From Microcoleus vaginatus PCC 9802 (GTDB lineage: Bacteria; Cyanobacteriota; Cyanobacteriia; Cyanobacteriales; Microcoleaceae): a DNA stretch of 64,000 nucleotides. The notes under the pieces are model-generated. The model was not told where the DNA came from. It saw only the letters and a list, made by a program, of their open reading frames with translations, and did not search any database. Positions 48,562 through 54,464 of this stretch are shown here, piece by piece. Both the position numbers and the translations under genes were made by a program. The first letter of the stretch is position 1. Every line of letters begins with the position of its first letter. The stretch is from assembly GCA_022701275.1 (NCBI GenBank), contig CP031740.1, positions 5,593,001-5,657,000 of the forward strand, read 5' to 3'.

Positions 48562-49926
48562 ATGACAAAGGACAATCACCGGCAACAATTCCCAGCTTTG
48601 GCCAATAAAGCTTATTTTAACTACGGCGGACAAGGGCCGCTGCCTGAGCCTGCTTTAGAGGCGATTTATGAGGCTTACAAACGGGTACAGCTTGGAGGGC
48701 CGTTTTCGGCGGAGGTGGGGGCTTGGGTGGTTCAGGAGGCGATGCTGACGCGACGTGCGATCGCATCTGAGTTGACCGTACCTCCTGAAACCATTGCCCT
48801 GACTGAAGATGTCACCGTCGGCTGCAATATTGCGCTGTGGGGCATTGACTGGAAAGCTGGCGACCATTTGCTGCTTTCTGATTGCGAACATCCGGGCATT
48901 GTAGCTAGTGTAATGGAACTTCAGCGCCGTTTCAACATTGAGGTTTCGGTTTGTCCGTTGGCGGCTACTTTGAATGAGGGCGATCCGGTGGCGGTGATTG
49001 CTGATAGTTTGCAGCCAAATACTCGCTTGTTGGTTATCAGTCACATTTTGTGGAATACTGGCCAAGTTTTGCCTCTGGCTGAGATTGTGAAAGTGTGTCA
49101 TGAACGCCCCCTAGCCCCCCCTTGCCAAGGGGGGGGACAAGAGGATTTTTCGCTGATTCAATCCGCCGAGGAGGAAACAGATATAAAACCCCCCCTAACC
49201 CCCCCTTGCCAAGGGGGGGGACAAGAGGATTTTTCTCTGGTTCAAGGGGAGGGAAAAGAGGATTTGTCCCTGATTCAAGGGGGGGAACAAGAGGAATTGC
49301 CTGCCAAGGATTACAAAGTTAGAGTGTTAGTTGATGCGGCTCAATCTGTGGGGGTTTTGCCTTTAAATTTGATTGAATCGGGGGTTGATTTTTATGCTTT
49401 TACTGGTCACAAATGGTGGTGCGGCCCGGAAGGTTTGGGGGGGCTTTATGTGAGTGCTGAAGCTTTGGCAGATTTGCATCCGGTGTTTATCGGTTGGCGG
49501 GGAATTGTGACGGATGCTAATGCTAAAGTCCTTGGGTGGAAGTCGGGATCGCAGCGCTATGAAATTGCGACTTCGGCTTATCCTTTGTATGCGGGTTTGC
49601 GGAGTGCGATCGCCCTGCAACATGAATGGGGTACGATCGAGGAAAGGTATGCAGAAATTTGCCGTTTGAGTAAGTATCTCTGGGAGCGTTTATCGGAACT
49701 TCCCGATGTCGAATGTTTGCGAAAATCTGCGCCGGAAGCGGGTTTGGTTTCGTTTCGATTAACTAATGGGATGCCGCACAAAAAGCTAGTTGATGTCTTG
49801 GAGAAACAGGGGATTATGGTGCGGACAATTCTTAATCCTGATTGTGTGCGGGCTTGTGTTCACTATTTTACAACTGAGGCGGAGATGGATAAGTTGGTTG
49901 GGGCGATCGCAATTCAATTCGTATAG
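48562..49926 (+). CDS. PLP-dependent class V lyase (cysteine/cystine C-S lyase-like) with repeat insertions
   Basis: 454 residues. It has KAYFNYGGQGPLPEPALEAI, LTEDVTVGCNIALWGIDWK, HPGIVASVMELQRRFNIEV, VLVDAAQSVGVLPLNLIESG and the Schiff-base Lys in FTGHKWWCGPEGLGGL. The pattern resembles Synechocystis C-DES, which cleaves cystine for iron-sulfur assembly; cysteine desulfurase is an alternative. Between HILWNTGQVLPLAEIVKVCH and VRVLVDAAQ lies an insertion of about 65 residues (49104-49306) made of tandem copies of a GC-rich palindromic repeat translated as PPCQGGGQEDFSL. Terminator at 50008. Confidence 0.85.
   Translation: MTKDNHRQQFPALANKAYFNYGGQGPLPEPALEAIYEAYKRVQLGGPFSAEVGAWVVQEAMLTRRAIASELTVPPETIALTEDVTVGCNIALWGIDWKAGDHLLLSDCEHPGIVASVMELQRRFNIEVSVCPLAATLNEGDPVAVIADSLQPNTRLLVISHILWNTGQVLPLAEIVKVCHERPLAPPCQGGGQEDFSLIQSAEEETDIKPPLTPPCQGGGQEDFSLVQGEGKEDLSLIQGGEQEELPAKDYKVRVLVDAAQSVGVLPLNLIESGVDFYAFTGHKWWCGPEGLGGLYVSAEALADLHPVFIGWRGIVTDANAKVLGWKSGSQRYEIATSAYPLYAGLRSAIALQHEWGTIEERYAEICRLSKYLWERLSELPDVECLRKSAPEAGLVSFRLTNGMPHKKLVDVLEKQGIMVRTILNPDCVRACVHYFTTEAEMDKLVGAIAIQFV
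49104..49306. repeat. Palindromic repeat copies inserted in frame
   Basis: Two full copies contain the near-palindrome CCCCCCCTTGCCAAGGGGGG (from 49115 and 49199), each followed by GGACAAGAGGATTTTTC, then two shortened copies of the AAGAGGAxTTxTC/CTGATTCAAGGGG unit. Total length keeps the reading frame of the PLP lyase. Confidence 0.9.
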
Positions 49927-50007
49927 CCGGGGCAGGTTTATCTATAGTCCTGGACGCAGGGGTAGTCAGAAACCGGGTTTTTGCGAGAATACTTGGTTAC
50001 AGCCTTT

Positions 50008-50038
50008 GAACCGGGCAAAAAACCCGGTTCCTTTTTTT
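50008..50038 (+). terminator. Intrinsic terminator made from an AAACCGGGTTT-type repeat
   Basis: GAACCGGG-CAAAAAA-CCCGGTTC stem-loop (50008-50030) followed by C and seven T residues (50032-50038). It ends transcription of the PLP lyase gene. Confidence 0.85.
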
Positions 50039-50055
50039 GGCATCAATATAATAAG

Positions 50056-50451
50056 ATGGATTCGGTGTTATTGGCTACAGGCTTGCCATGTATGAGTGGA
50101 ATTGACCGTGAAGTTACTCTAGAAACCCGAAGCAGTCTCATTGACAAACATCTCCCCGGAACCCAAAAAGCAGAAAGCGAACTTGAAAGCGAAGGAATTG
50201 TCCATCTCTTTAATGATAGAGAAACAATGGAAAGAGTCGCCGCAGAAATCAAGACAAGAGGCGAACGCACAGGAGCGGACGATCCAGAGGATAATTATGA
50301 ACGCTATGGATTGTACTTTTCAGAACAAATTGGTTATATACTGAAAGCAGACGGTACTCGGATACCACTAAACTACGGTGAAATAAAGATTAAGAAAACC
50401 ACAGGTAAATATCATGTCATACCTCGCACAAGACCCCGTACAAGCTACTAA
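50056..50451 (+). CDS. Putative small toxin-like protein (BECR/EndoU-like pattern)
   Basis: About 131 residues from ATG 50056 (an inner ATG at 50092 is possible). Sequence landmarks are ETRSSLIDKHLPGTQ, GIVHLFNDRETMERV, ERYGLYFSEQIGYI, GEIKIKKTTGKYHVIPRTRP. This domain recurs at the end of large polymorphic proteins; the His in DKHLPG and the C-terminal YHVIPR invite comparison with EndoU/barnase-like RNases. No upstream delivery region. The following gene overlaps by 38 bases and could be its immunity partner. Tentative. Confidence 0.55.
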   Translation: MDSVLLATGLPCMSGIDREVTLETRSSLIDKHLPGTQKAESELESEGIVHLFNDRETMERVAAEIKTRGERTGADDPEDNYERYGLYFSEQIGYILKADGTRIPLNYGEIKIKKTTGKYHVIPRTRPRTSY

Positions 50452-50692
50452 AATCAGTCAAGAATCAGAGCAAGAGAGTGAGTGGGAGTTTGCGGAAATC
50501 TGGGCTGATACTCTGATATCTCCTCCTTATATCCTGATGTTAGTTAAGGAAAAATCAGGTAAGTTTTGCATCCATAACCCGGCACAAAATTATAAAATTA
50601 TTTTTTCTAGTGACAATTACGAAGCTGCTAAAATGTGGCTCCTAGAGGATGAATATGAGCGTTTGAATAGTCGCATTTTACAAGAAGTATAA
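50414..50692 (+). CDS. Small acidic protein, possible immunity partner
   Basis: 92 residues, unrecognised: MSYLAQDPVQATKISQ, a Ser/Glu-rich stretch, WEFAEIWADTLISPPYILML and an acidic C terminus. It overlaps the preceding toxin-like gene by 38 bases in another frame, a tight coupling usual for toxin-immunity pairs. Function inferred from arrangement only. Confidence 0.5.
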   Translation: MSYLAQDPVQATKISQESEQESEWEFAEIWADTLISPPYILMLVKEKSGKFCIHNPAQNYKIIFSSDNYEAAKMWLLEDEYERLNSRILQEV

Positions 50693-50726
50693 AGTAATGT
50701 CGCGAAGAGGGATTTGATTATTTATG

Positions 50727-51095
50727 TCACCAAACTTCGTTCCCCATAGCAACTCCACTGTCAATCTCATTATGAAGATTCTCAGGCGCGATCGCCTCAA
50801 CCAACTCCTCAAGGGAATACCGCCGACGAGTTACGGATTCGATAATTTTCTCAGCGTCAATAGAGGCATCTATTTCCTGAGAGTGGGCGGCATAAAAAGC
50901 GAGAACATCGTTCACTTGAGCTTCACTTAAGTCATACTCAGCCGCAATTTGGTTTGGCGAAAAACCCCATTTCTGGGCTGCGATGACTATTGTTTGCACC
51001 CGCAAGCGAGTGCCGCGCAAAACTGGAACGAGTTGGCCACTAGCGCCGCGCACATAGGTAATTTCAGGAAAAGTGCGATCGTCATTCTGTTTCAT
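50727..51095 (-). CDS. DUF433 / MazE-tail chimeric antitoxin-like protein
   Basis: 122 residues. The first ~70 match DUF433 (ITYVRGASGQLVPVLRGTRL, VIAAQKWGFSPNQIAAEYDL, VNDVLAFYAAH), a winged-helix family usually paired with PIN-like toxins. The last ~30 (RRRYSLEELVEAIAPENLHN, then GVAMGNEVW) match the toxin-binding tail of MazE antitoxins. No PIN or MazF gene is adjacent. Instead it is the third gene of the ParA/ParB-like operon, 12 bases after the ParB-like stop. Confidence 0.75.
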   Translation of the reverse strand: MKQNDDRTFPEITYVRGASGQLVPVLRGTRLRVQTIVIAAQKWGFSPNQIAAEYDLSEAQVNDVLAFYAAHSQEIDASIDAEKIIESVTRRRYSLEELVEAIAPENLHNEIDSGVAMGNEVW

Positions 51096-51107
51096 GGAAA
51101 ATTGGTA

Positions 51108-51665
51108 TTAATTAACGGTTAAAAAATCGGATACCAGGGGAATTTTTGCTTTGCCGATTCCACATTTTAAAGTAGTCAAAAAGTTTAGGCTTGTAGGCTT
51201 CTTTGTCTTCCTGTATTCCATGATAGCCTTGGCAGCGTTTAAGGCATCAACCTTGCCAAAACTAGGCTGTTGAGCTTTGATGCGCTCTAGTGCTTCCTGT
51301 ATTTCTTGCTCGGAAGCGACAAGGATGTTAGTTGCTACTGTAGGCGGAGTAATAACCAGCCCAGCTTCTATTTGTATCTGTTCCAGCATTGGCTCATCAA
51401 CAATGATACACCAGACGAAATCCTTTTTAGCTAAACGGGCTGCATCTAATATCTGAGTATTGAAAACTGATTGGTAGTTGTCTTCATCTAAGGGCTTAAC
51501 TACAATAGGCAAAATGTTTTTTTCCGTTTTACTCAACTGCTCTGCTATGGCTTCGATTTGTTTGGCAGCTACATTTGACTTACCCTGAATAAACTTACAT
51601 GGTAATTGCAAAACTTGTCCTAGTGGAATGTCAGCCGAGAATTCTTCTTCTTGAAAAGGTGCCAT
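51108..51665 (-). CDS. ParB/sulfiredoxin-like partner protein
   Basis: 185 residues. The N-terminal IPLGQVLQLPCKFIQGK, AAKQIEAIAEQLSKTEKNIL PIVVKPL pattern (given in pieces) is the ParB N-terminal nuclease-type fold, but the classical GERR motif is absent. The C-terminal part (VDALNAAKAIMEYRKTKKP) is helical and unassigned. It lies between a ParA-nuclease fusion (9-base gap upstream) and the antitoxin-like gene, as ParB would. A short ParB-like adaptor is the best description; DNA binding is not shown. Confidence 0.65.
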   Translation of the reverse strand: MAPFQEEEFSADIPLGQVLQLPCKFIQGKSNVAAKQIEAIAEQLSKTEKNILPIVVKPLDEDNYQSVFNTQILDAARLAKKDFVWCIIVDEPMLEQIQIEAGLVITPPTVATNILVASEQEIQEALERIKAQQPSFGKVDALNAAKAIMEYRKTKKPTSLNFLTTLKCGIGKAKIPLVSDFLTVN

Positions 51666-51674
51666 AATTGCCTG

Positions 51675-53057
51675 CTAATTATCGATAAAGTTGTGCTGGA
51701 GAAATACTTCTTGGGCGAGGTTTTTGTAGAGTTTGGTGATGGGGGATTTGTGCCAGCAAATTACTGGTCGTTGTTGAAATTCTGCAACCTTAGTCTGAGC
51801 GTAACTTTTTAACTCAGTTTTGTAGGGCTTTCCAGTGAAGTTTAGTTGTGTGATTGTATCGTTGATGTGATTCTGGAGGATGCTGCCCTTTTCAGCAGGA
51901 CAATTGCTGAACACTAAACCAAGGTTCCAGGGAGCAACAGGCAATTCCCCCTTCTGAACCCTAGCATTTCTCCATCTAGGAATGGCCTTGTCAACTCCTG
52001 CTGCATGATGCAGTGATTTTTTGTCAAAATCCACAGGGATTAAAACAGTGTCGCAAGAAGCTAGCATCGCCAATGTCAAGATATCTGCTGTAGGGGAAGC
52101 GTCAATGAATATGTAGTCGTAGTCATCACTCAGCAGGTTAATAATTGTCTTGACGAATGACCTTTTGAGCGAGTCTGGAAAGTTGGTGCTATCTCGAAAA
52201 GCTTTTAACTCCTCCGTCTCTCCCGGCAAAACTGACAAGGAAAAAGGCTTGCTGTCAGTGGTCGGGAAATTGCGGAGTTGGACTGCATTGCTCAAAATCT
52301 TCTTGGTAGTTTTGTCGTTTTTAACTTGAATTTGATCGCTGCAATCCTTCAAGTAGTTCTTAACTTGAATCTTGGCTTTCAGCCCTCTGGTTAAATCAGT
52401 TTGCGGGTCTAAGTCAATCAGCAAAACCTTCTTGCCTTCTGTCGCGAGTGCTGCGCCTAGATTGATGGTGTTAGTTGTCTTTGCTACGCCTCCTTTCTGA
52501 TTCCAAATGGCTGTTACCAAAGCCCGCTGAGGAGTCAAGCAATACTCTAATTGACGCAAAAGCTTATGAAAATTTGCTGCTGTCACTTTTAGCACGGGAG
52601 TTAAAGGGAAAACCAGCCCTTCAACTCGCCGCCAAACTTGAAAGAAGTCACCATTAAATACCCATCCGTAAGCAGCTAGATAGTCAAGCGGTACTTTTGT
52701 ATTGTCGAGGTACTGCTTAATTCCATTGTTACCTGTACTATTATAGCCTACCGCATCTTTATACAACTTTTGCTGCTGGCAAAAATCGGAGAACCCTTGC
52801 TCTGGAGCGTCATAAAATAAGCTACTACGCTTTTTAATCTCAACAACTATTCTAGGTGGCTTGTCTAATTCGTCATATATTAAGTAATCGGGTTTTAAGC
52901 CTGTTCCAGAACCTAAACTTCCAGTCGTTATCTGCTCGAACTTAAGACCTATAACCTCCCATATCAGGGGAATTAAGTGTGCTTTCAGATCGGCTTCTGA
53001 GTAGTTACTTGGTAGAGATTTCCAGCGCTCTATTAACTTACTGATACTGGTTCCCAT
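51675..53057 (-). CDS. ParA-type ATPase fused to an N-terminal PD-(D/E)XK nuclease-like domain
   Basis: 460 residues from ATG 53057 (an upstream in-frame start adds 20). Residues 1-160 look like the N-terminal nuclease domain of HsdR type restriction subunits: EADLKAHLIPLIWEVIG, then LKPDYLIYDE and IVVEIKK, giving PD57...E73-x-K75, followed by GWVFNGDFFQVWRR. Residues 178-460 are a full ParA ATPase: AIWNQKGGVAKTTNTINLG (Walker A with the signature Lys), LLIDLDPQTDLTRGL, YIFIDASPTADILTLA. The combination with ParB-like and antitoxin-like genes downstream is unfamiliar to me. A defence or element-maintenance role is inferred. Confidence 0.8.
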   Translation of the reverse strand: MGTSISKLIERWKSLPSNYSEADLKAHLIPLIWEVIGLKFEQITTGSLGSGTGLKPDYLIYDELDKPPRIVVEIKKRSSLFYDAPEQGFSDFCQQQKLYKDAVGYNSTGNNGIKQYLDNTKVPLDYLAAYGWVFNGDFFQVWRRVEGLVFPLTPVLKVTAANFHKLLRQLEYCLTPQRALVTAIWNQKGGVAKTTNTINLGAALATEGKKVLLIDLDPQTDLTRGLKAKIQVKNYLKDCSDQIQVKNDKTTKKILSNAVQLRNFPTTDSKPFSLSVLPGETEELKAFRDSTNFPDSLKRSFVKTIINLLSDDYDYIFIDASPTADILTLAMLASCDTVLIPVDFDKKSLHHAAGVDKAIPRWRNARVQKGELPVAPWNLGLVFSNCPAEKGSILQNHINDTITQLNFTGKPYKTELKSYAQTKVAEFQQRPVICWHKSPITKLYKNLAQEVFLQHNFIDN

Positions 53058-53121
53058 TTTTACCCCAACAAGATTGTGGCTATCATTGTTAAGTTTTACA
53101 GTACCATAAATAAGCAAAAAA

Positions 53122-53154
53122 ATCGCCCTTTCTCTAAAACAAGCAAAGGGCGAT
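53122..53154 (-). terminator. Intrinsic terminator of the ferrochelatase-like gene
   Basis: ATCGCCCTTT (53122-53131) and AAAGGGCGAT (53145-53154) form a perfect 10-bp stem. The minus strand runs on into a T-tract (A-run 53116-53122). It lies between two minus-strand genes and separates their transcripts. Confidence 0.75.
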
Positions 53155-53174
53155 CGACTTTTTAACTCAACTAA

Positions 53175-54464
53175 TTAATGACTGTGCCCGTGCCCGTGAG
53201 AATGGCCATGCCCGCCATGAGAATGACCGTGTTCACCATGAGAATGCCCGTGCCCGCCATGAGAATGCCCGTGATCACCATGAGAATGCCCGTGATTACC
53301 ATGAGAATCCCCGTGTCCGCCATGAGAATGCCCGTGCCCTTCATGAGAATGCGCGTGCTCGCGGTGCGCTGAAGCCAAACTCGGATTAACAGCAACCGCA
53401 GTTTCACTCAACAACGCTTCAATCTGCGGATTTGCCCACTCAGCGGCCATTTTCAGAAACTCTGGATGGTCATTCACGCAAGGCAATTTGCGGTAAGTAA
53501 CTCCTTGACGCTGTTTCTGCAAAGACTCAATAATGTGGTCTACATCTAACAATGTTTCGTGATTTTCTGTCGCAAATCCGATCGGCATAAAGACGATCGC
53601 AGTTGCACCCAAATCAATCAAATTCTTCGCAGCCAACGTCGCATCCGGCTGTGTCCATTCAATCAGCGGTGTGTCGTGATTCAGCCAACCCACCGAAATC
53701 AAAGGATAGCGATACATCAAACGTTCCCGCACGCGATCGTACAAAGCTTGACTTTCCACAATTCCCGAAGTAAAGCCCTTCGCCTTGTGCGGACAACCGT
53801 GATTCATCAGCACAATCCCAATCTGAGAAGGCAAATGCGCTACAGCTAAATCGTTCTTAATTTCCTCTTCAACCAAATCCGCCATTAGCTGGATGTAAGC
53901 AGGTTCATCGTAAAAAGAAGGAATGTAGCGTTGTCCTTTTACCCAATGTTCCTTACCATCAAAGGTTTGTGCTAAAGCTTTATTCACCTGTTCGACTGCA
54001 ATGCCGCTGGTGAAAACAGAATCAACTACCAACAGGGGATAAATCAGAATTTTGTCAAATCCTTCTGCTTGAATTTGAGGGATTACTTGTTCCGGCAAAA
54101 ACGGGGCGCAAAAGTTAAAAGCTTTGAACACTTTTACTTTATCGCCCCATTTCTCCTGTAAATTCTTTTCAATCCCAGCGCGCTGCTGTTCAAAAATTGC
54201 ATTGTGCGGCGAAACGAATTGACCGTGTTGGTGACTCCACTCGTGCAAGTCAAAGATTGCCAAAATCTTCGCCAGCGGCGGATAAATCCAAAGCGGTACT
54301 GGCGCAAACTTTGCCGTAAGCAAATTTAAAGCTTGTTCGTTGTAGTTGGCAAAATCGTCGTAGCTTTCGACTTCGCCGTAACCCATCAGTAATACAGCAA
54401 CCCGATCATTACTTGCGGGTGCTGCAGATGTTTTGGACTCGATTTTTTCTGGAGAAGCAACCAC
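53175..54464 (-). CDS. Ferrochelatase-like class II chelatase with a His-rich tail
   Basis: 429 residues. The body resembles ferrochelatase/HemH-type chelatases: VAVLLMGYGEVESYDDF, the catalytic-type VLMNHGCPHKAKGFTSG, and TAIVFMPIGFATENHETLLD, where ENHET matches the metal-binding Glu/His region of ferrochelatases. The last ~70 residues are tandem HGHSHGG-type heptads (21-base DNA units, eight or so). Such tails bind nickel, cobalt or zinc. The tail may store or deliver metal, or be a different chelatase's specificity element. Exact substrate cannot be set. Confidence 0.8.
   Translation of the reverse strand: MVASPEKIESKTSAAPASNDRVAVLLMGYGEVESYDDFANYNEQALNLLTAKFAPVPLWIYPPLAKILAIFDLHEWSHQHGQFVSPHNAIFEQQRAGIEKNLQEKWGDKVKVFKAFNFCAPFLPEQVIPQIQAEGFDKILIYPLLVVDSVFTSGIAVEQVNKALAQTFDGKEHWVKGQRYIPSFYDEPAYIQLMADLVEEEIKNDLAVAHLPSQIGIVLMNHGCPHKAKGFTSGIVESQALYDRVRERLMYRYPLISVGWLNHDTPLIEWTQPDATLAAKNLIDLGATAIVFMPIGFATENHETLLDVDHIIESLQKQRQGVTYRKLPCVNDHPEFLKMAAEWANPQIEALLSETAVAVNPSLASAHREHAHSHEGHGHSHGGHGDSHGNHGHSHGDHGHSHGGHGHSHGEHGHSHGGHGHSHGHGHSH
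53184..53360 (-). repeat. 21-base coding tandem repeat (His-rich tail)
   Basis: About eight imperfect units with core CATGAGAATGCCCGTG on the plus strand, encoding HGHSHGG/D/E/N heptads. Confidence 0.9.

Follow-up and report, generated by a model that had tools for sequence, protein, structure and literature searches.

A patchily distributed two-gene cassette of cyanobacteria encoding a predicted nuclease-ParA fusion and a ParB-like protein

The stretch analysed here (the window) comprises 64,000 nucleotides of Microcoleus vaginatus PCC 9802 (assembly GCA_022701275.1, contig CP031740.1, positions 5,593,001 to 5,657,000) and carries two adjacent minus-strand genes, designated A and B, that form an accessory cassette: the pair comes and goes and is patchily distributed across the cyanobacteria. 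A is predicted to fuse a PD-(D/E)XK-type nuclease domain to a ParA ATPase, and B joins a ParB-type fold to a helix-hairpin-helix (HhH) region. The cassette may act to interfere with mobile DNA or to maintain it, and the data fit both DNA-surveillance defence and element maintenance. We tentatively favour an ATP-switched nuclease module directed against foreign or rival DNA over partition. The features of the cassette are as follows, in window coordinates.

51675-53057, minus strand: gene A, 460 amino acids (aa), predicted fusion of a PD-(D/E)XK (HsdR_N-like) domain and a ParA ATPase
52524-53057, minus strand: nuclease-like domain, residues 1-178 of A
52887-52889, 52839-52841 and 52833-52835, minus strand: codons of D57, E73 and K75 of A
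51675-52523, minus strand: ParA/Soj ATPase with deviant Walker A motif, residues 179-460 of A (Pfam AAA_31, E 2.8e-31)
52494-52496, minus strand: codon of K188, the ParA signature lysine (WNQKGGVAKTT)
51108-51665, minus strand: gene B, 185 aa, ParB N-domain fold (approximately residues 12-106) and ComEA-like HhH region (approximately 109-185)

The start of A is best placed at the ATG at 53057, approximately where homology to most relatives begins (the open reading frame [ORF] list has a TTG at 53117). The sequence matches of the ATPase half are Soj/ParA structures, and K188 is present in 121/121 rows of near relatives and 118/120 rows of far ones. The Walker A motif reads KGGV-A-KTT or KGGV-S-KTT in most near relatives, with a G at the variable position in 120/120 rows of the distant form. 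For the N-terminal domain, Pfam run on A itself matched no nuclease family; relatives of A match HSDR_N/HSDR_N_2, and the predicted model of residues 1-178 (pLDDT 92.6) resembles the nuclease domains of type IIG and HsdR enzymes. On the strength of the matches of this confident model and the family matches of the relatives, the domain is assigned a predicted restriction-endonuclease-like core fold of the PD-(D/E)XK superfamily, HsdR_N-like. The original prediction had described A as a nuclease-type domain (D57, E73-x-K75) joined to a ParA ATPase with the signature lysine; the residues are as it stated, and the nuclease assignment comes by way of the model and the relatives.

The putative catalytic residues are near-invariant. 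In the lettered rows of the near alignment (121 rows in all), D57 is found in 118/118, E73 in 118/119 (the other row has D) and K75 in 119/119; the corresponding counts among distant relatives are 120/120, 119/120 and 119/120. At 20 further loci they are 19/20, 20/20 and 20/20, the missing D belonging to a frame shortened by the chosen ORF. All three residues are retained among relatives at approximately 30% identity, and carriers of A with the catalytic residues range from a 1.7 Mb genome (L164) to large filamentous cyanobacteria. This conservation suggests that nuclease catalysis has been kept.

B has a ParB-like fold, although GERR, the CTP-binding motif of ParB, is absent: the corresponding position reads N69-T-Q-I in B and N-T-Q-I or similar, with neither of the two arginines, in an alignment of 23 B sequences. 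The earlier description of B as a ParB-like protein without GERR is therefore upheld, the fold being that of the ParB N-domain. Pfam found no helix-turn-helix (HTH) family in B, and past residue 109 the structural matches are ComEA HhH regions; absence from the structure-match list was not taken as exclusion of an HTH or as proof of a new fold. B can probably bind DNA through the HhH region. The C-terminal residues (approximately 75) are like ComEA-type HhH proteins, fused in B to a ParB-type domain. This region also distinguishes B from PadC-type ParB-like adaptors, and the match of PadC to B by sequence is at chance level only (E 0.52).

A and B are consistently found together. A scan of loci L002-L059 gave 54 with a strong A, 49 of them distinct by their last 150 residues, and at 51/54 loci (46/49 distinct) A is followed by a B in the same orientation. 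A spacing of -85 to 53 bases separates the two genes at 49 of these 51; in the other two, L028 and L053, the A frame is short or broken. As to the exceptions, no B was detected at the two Mastigocoleus loci (L054 and L055), and the sequence of L059 stops inside A. In a clustering of neighbours at 41 loci, A was present at 41 and B at 39, and a conserved third partner was rejected because the commonest other cluster occurred at only 7/41.

B was found in at least 42 of 386 sampled cyanobacterial genomes and in at least 32 of 142 genera, and a model of the N-domain built from near relatives only found at least 30 of the 386 genomes; these counts are lower bounds because at most eight candidates were scored per genome. 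The genome-level search covered cyanobacteria only. Among the rows listed for A, B and the distant N-domain (120, 96 and 120, respectively), the minority with a named organism are cyanobacterial except P0073 and P0211, which are Verrucomicrobia according to one source and Leptolyngbya according to another. Broken copies of A (split by approximately 1.2 kb in G053 [L010]; in two ORFs in Pleurocapsa L053) are signs of decay and dispensability. Insertion linked to tRNA genes was rejected, as a tRNA gene lies in the fetched stretch at only 3/25 loci. A viral origin was also rejected: among viral contigs, the query A1 matched one locus (ParA half only) and A2 none. Phage records matching A number 127, none of which covers more than 80% of it.

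In Microcoleus, the cassette lies in a slot (49926-53175) whose content differs across strains. The two flanking genes are referred to here, provisionally, as sirB and csd.

53175-54464, minus strand: sirB-like flank, a chelatase-like gene with a His-rich tail, found in 18/20 same-genus genomes, its own included
48562-49926, plus strand: csd-like flank, an aminotransferase/cysteine-desulfurase-like gene, with matches in 20/20 same-genus genomes (in G206 by short repeats only)

Both flanks were found in 10 of 14 stretches from other genomes; the remaining four are short or on another contig. Between them lie A and B (the window, G202 and L041), mazE-mazF-DUF433 (G203), a MazE tail and DUF433 as separate entities (G207 and G201), a gene for an ATPase accompanied by a TPR or CHAT-TPR protein (G166, G001 and G208) or a chemotaxis-receptor gene (G195). 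In the G166 pair, the one scanned, CHAT matched at E 4.6e-43 and AAA_16 fell below cut-off. Homology of G195 to the window stops at 51087 and restarts at 53013, within the first codons of A; given this stub, G195 formerly had all or part of the cassette and has lost it. Two side observations concern this region. In the sirB-like gene, the His-rich tail, which is variable, is encoded by 21-bp tandem repeats at 53173-53381. At L120 (3629-8401), a 1137-aa TPR-CHAT protein stands next to a 452-aa AAA_16-like ATPase, possibly a defence pair, with shorter look-alikes at L115, L119 and L041.

Nei-Gojobori comparisons of the window, L041 and L042 (three sequences only, and therefore indicative) put dN/dS at 0.42-0.48 in A and at 0.36-0.53 in B. 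The flanks, compared between the window and L117 (same genome as L042), gave a dN of 0.019 and a dS of 0.466 for sirB (first 340 codons) and 0.061 and 0.334 for csd, for dN/dS values of 0.04 and 0.18, respectively. A has a lower dS (0.28) than the neighbouring sirB (0.47), a difference suggestive of exchange among strains.

ParABS (Soj/Spo0J, plasmid ParA/ParB) is among the known systems nearest to the cassette: a ParA ATPase with the signature lysine is followed by a ParB-fold gene, and the pair can be plasmid-borne. In contrast to ParABS, A adds a PD-(D/E)XK-type domain, B has an HhH end and neither GERR nor a detected HTH, and the cassette occurs on chromosomes too, and alongside other partition genes. 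Residues 1-178 of A share the nuclease-domain fold and the D, E-x-K residues of type I HsdR and type IIG-like enzymes (EcoR124I HsdR, BpuSI, DrdV), but A has a ParA ATPase, and no helicase, methyltransferase or specificity domain was found in it with Pfam. In agreement with the original prediction, which knew of no described system with this composition, no description of a nuclease-ParA and ParB-like combination was found in the literature searched, which excluded most subscription papers and preprints; none appears in the available parts of PMC10899382, PMC8600333, PMC2743648, PMC1913061 and PMC12707154.

ParA dimers form with ATP and bind DNA, and ParB is the usual stimulator of the ATPase. 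It is possible, and we put it forward cautiously, that the cassette represents a DNA-interference system of an undescribed class, with the HsdR-type nuclease activated by ATP-driven ParA dimerisation and DNA recognised by the ParB-fold/HhH protein. In the tentatively favoured scheme, A would dimerise on DNA upon binding ATP, bringing two nuclease domains together; B would attach to DNA by its HhH region, select or report the target and, like ParB with ParA, stimulate ATP turnover by A. DNA that is misplaced, foreign or structurally unusual would then be cut by the complex, interfering with invading or competing DNA (phage or plasmid); both plasmids and chromosomes carry the cassette. Interference is preferred over plain partition because the cassette is accessory and patchy and coexists with other partition genes. 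Also in its favour are the retained D/E/K residues and the fold of the N-domain, the constant pairing of A with B and no other widespread neighbour, the location in a slot that other Microcoleus fill with mazEF or with a TPR-CHAT protein and an ATPase, and dN/dS values of A and B above those of sirB and csd.

Several observations weigh against this preference. Foldseek run with the N-domain of A returned nothing at E 0.001 or better. Within A, the dN/dS of the N-domain is 0.51-0.84 versus 0.36-0.40 for the ParA half (based on few differences), which argues to some extent against strong constraint on the nuclease part, or for rapid change around a fixed active site. No model in PADLOC-DB 2.0.0 covers most of A or B: partial matches were to PDC-M28B (ParA domain, best E 1e-5), and a Cas11b row was at chance level (E 0.014). 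In a test for defence islands, the seven nearest ORFs of at least 100 aa at 19 loci (133 proteins) were compared with those at arbitrary positions in the same genomes (127 proteins, reduced to 126 from 18 genomes by removing one very long sole ORF of L186), the family output being that of the first 25 families only. PADLOC families matched numbered 108 among the 133 neighbours versus 62 among the 126 controls; many of the matches are general kinases or methyltransferases, the controls also hold restriction and Cas12f-like rows, and Uma2 occurs five times in each set. The enrichment of defence genes near the cassette is weak and suggestive only. On two plasmids, moreover, the cassette may stand alone, as expected of a partition system: it is the sole annotated ParA-type gene of Pseudanabaena ABRG53g (12.6 kb, with a CyRepA1 replication protein), and L. 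boryana pLBA has no other annotated ParA in its PLSDB gene table, which is incomplete. The circular map of ABRG53g also shows, just beyond where B ends, an eight-copy array of a 23-nt GTAACA-type repeat (L036:412-870), possibly a centromere, iterons or a replication site.

Plasmid linkage and the ABRG53g array support maintenance. A reading almost as probable as interference is that the cassette serves plasmids, phage-plasmids and integrated elements as a variant module for partition or maintenance, with chromosomal copies being captured elements. The ParA half of A would position DNA with B as adaptor, and the nuclease-like domain would serve in DNA binding, resolution or copy control. A ParA paired with a ParB-fold protein is the classic arrangement for partition, and the cassette is found on complete cyanobacterial plasmids. 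Against partition, many copies lie on chromosome-sized contigs: the window genome has the cassette in a single 6.7 Mb contig, and it is on contigs of more than 1.7 Mb in 16/20 genomes (a set chosen for long contigs, in which 15 of the 16 carry the distant form). Three Nostoc plasmids in total carry a second partition-type gene beside the cassette. Plasmid 10 of Nostoc sp. UHCC 0870 also encodes another ParA (AAA_31) together with a ParB that has ParB_N and HTH, and on two Nostoc plasmids distant forms lie next to ParM-type genes (for plasmid 9, a family scan covered the ParM and a ParA). P. galeata pPg_01 similarly has a second ParA-like ATPase near the cassette (25 of 226 kb viewed). No parS-like repeat family adjoins the cassette in the window, where the one repeat family beside it is the array in the sirB His-rich tail, and nothing clear was found in the stretches searched of pLBA and Nostoc plasmid 10. 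The lack of GERR and of a detected ParB HTH in B also argues against partition, which alone leaves the near-invariant D/E/K set unexplained. As a separate observation, pLBA (L037, L204) may be a phage-plasmid: besides a terminase gene it has two tyrosine recombinases and a Rad52-like gene.

A role in DNA repair, recombination or uptake, with the HhH region of B sensing DNA structure and A processing it under ATP control, is unlikely: the patchy spread and a loss are ill-suited to housekeeping, and there is no widely recurring neighbour.

The original prediction had placed A and B in a three-gene operon with a further gene, C.

50727-51095, minus strand: gene C, 122 aa, apparent DUF433-MazE-tail chimera, resident of the site and outside the cassette

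The arrangement itself is as predicted, with three minus-strand ORFs separated by gaps of 9 bases (51666-51674, A/B) and 12 bases (51096-51107, B/C). The composition of C, described as DUF433 plus a MazE tail with no toxin alongside, is also borne out: C matches DUF433 in Pfam (E 2.9e-9), and residues 64-122 match the MazE tail (E 1.8e-7; 31.4 bits, far below the curated cut-off of 113). By eye, no toxin-like ORF adjoins C in the window ORF list, and the ORF next to it (50414-50692) has no Pfam match at cut-off. Membership of C in the system did not hold. By phmmer, C was found at one of the 54 loci with A (L041) and was unseen at the other 53, L117 additionally having a 13-residue stub; L041 has the same A-B-C order, but its C frame ends at 90 aa, before the MazE tail. 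C is present at the same site without intact A and B in G195 (93% identity) and G204 (81%, partial), and its halves are apart in mazEF strains, where 50838-51083 matches DUF433 and 50708-50829 matches the mazE tail. Because of its presence without the intact pair and the separation of its halves in other Microcoleus, C is excluded as a component: as judged by these comparisons, it is a chimera of DUF433 and a MazE tail, a remnant that belongs to the chromosomal slot, and it would have no part in the mechanism of A and B. The claim of a conserved cassette thus stands for the A/B pair, which occurs in varied contexts with near-invariant D/E/K, and fails for C, which is not co-conserved. In G198, G166 and the DNA of G195, the DUF433 gene has a longer N-terminus that is absent from C of the window, where B occupies that place. 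DUF433 proteins at L122 (2178-2591) and L120 (3149-3547) have an extra N-terminal segment, ribbon-helix-helix-like by eye, which C of the window is without. Despite the tight same-strand spacing in the window and the shared order at L041, it is very improbable that A, B and C are one compact system regulated by C, and the three-gene system was rejected.

Moving DNA and other cargo is the familiar task of ParA-type switches. In A, such a switch is fused to a nuclease-type domain in which the predicted catalytic residues are conserved among many cyanobacteria. Should the nuclease prove active, A would be a positioning machine turned cutting machine, or part of a partition system with its own weapon; if the interference reading is true, the logic of chromosome and plasmid segregation would have been reused to find and cut DNA.
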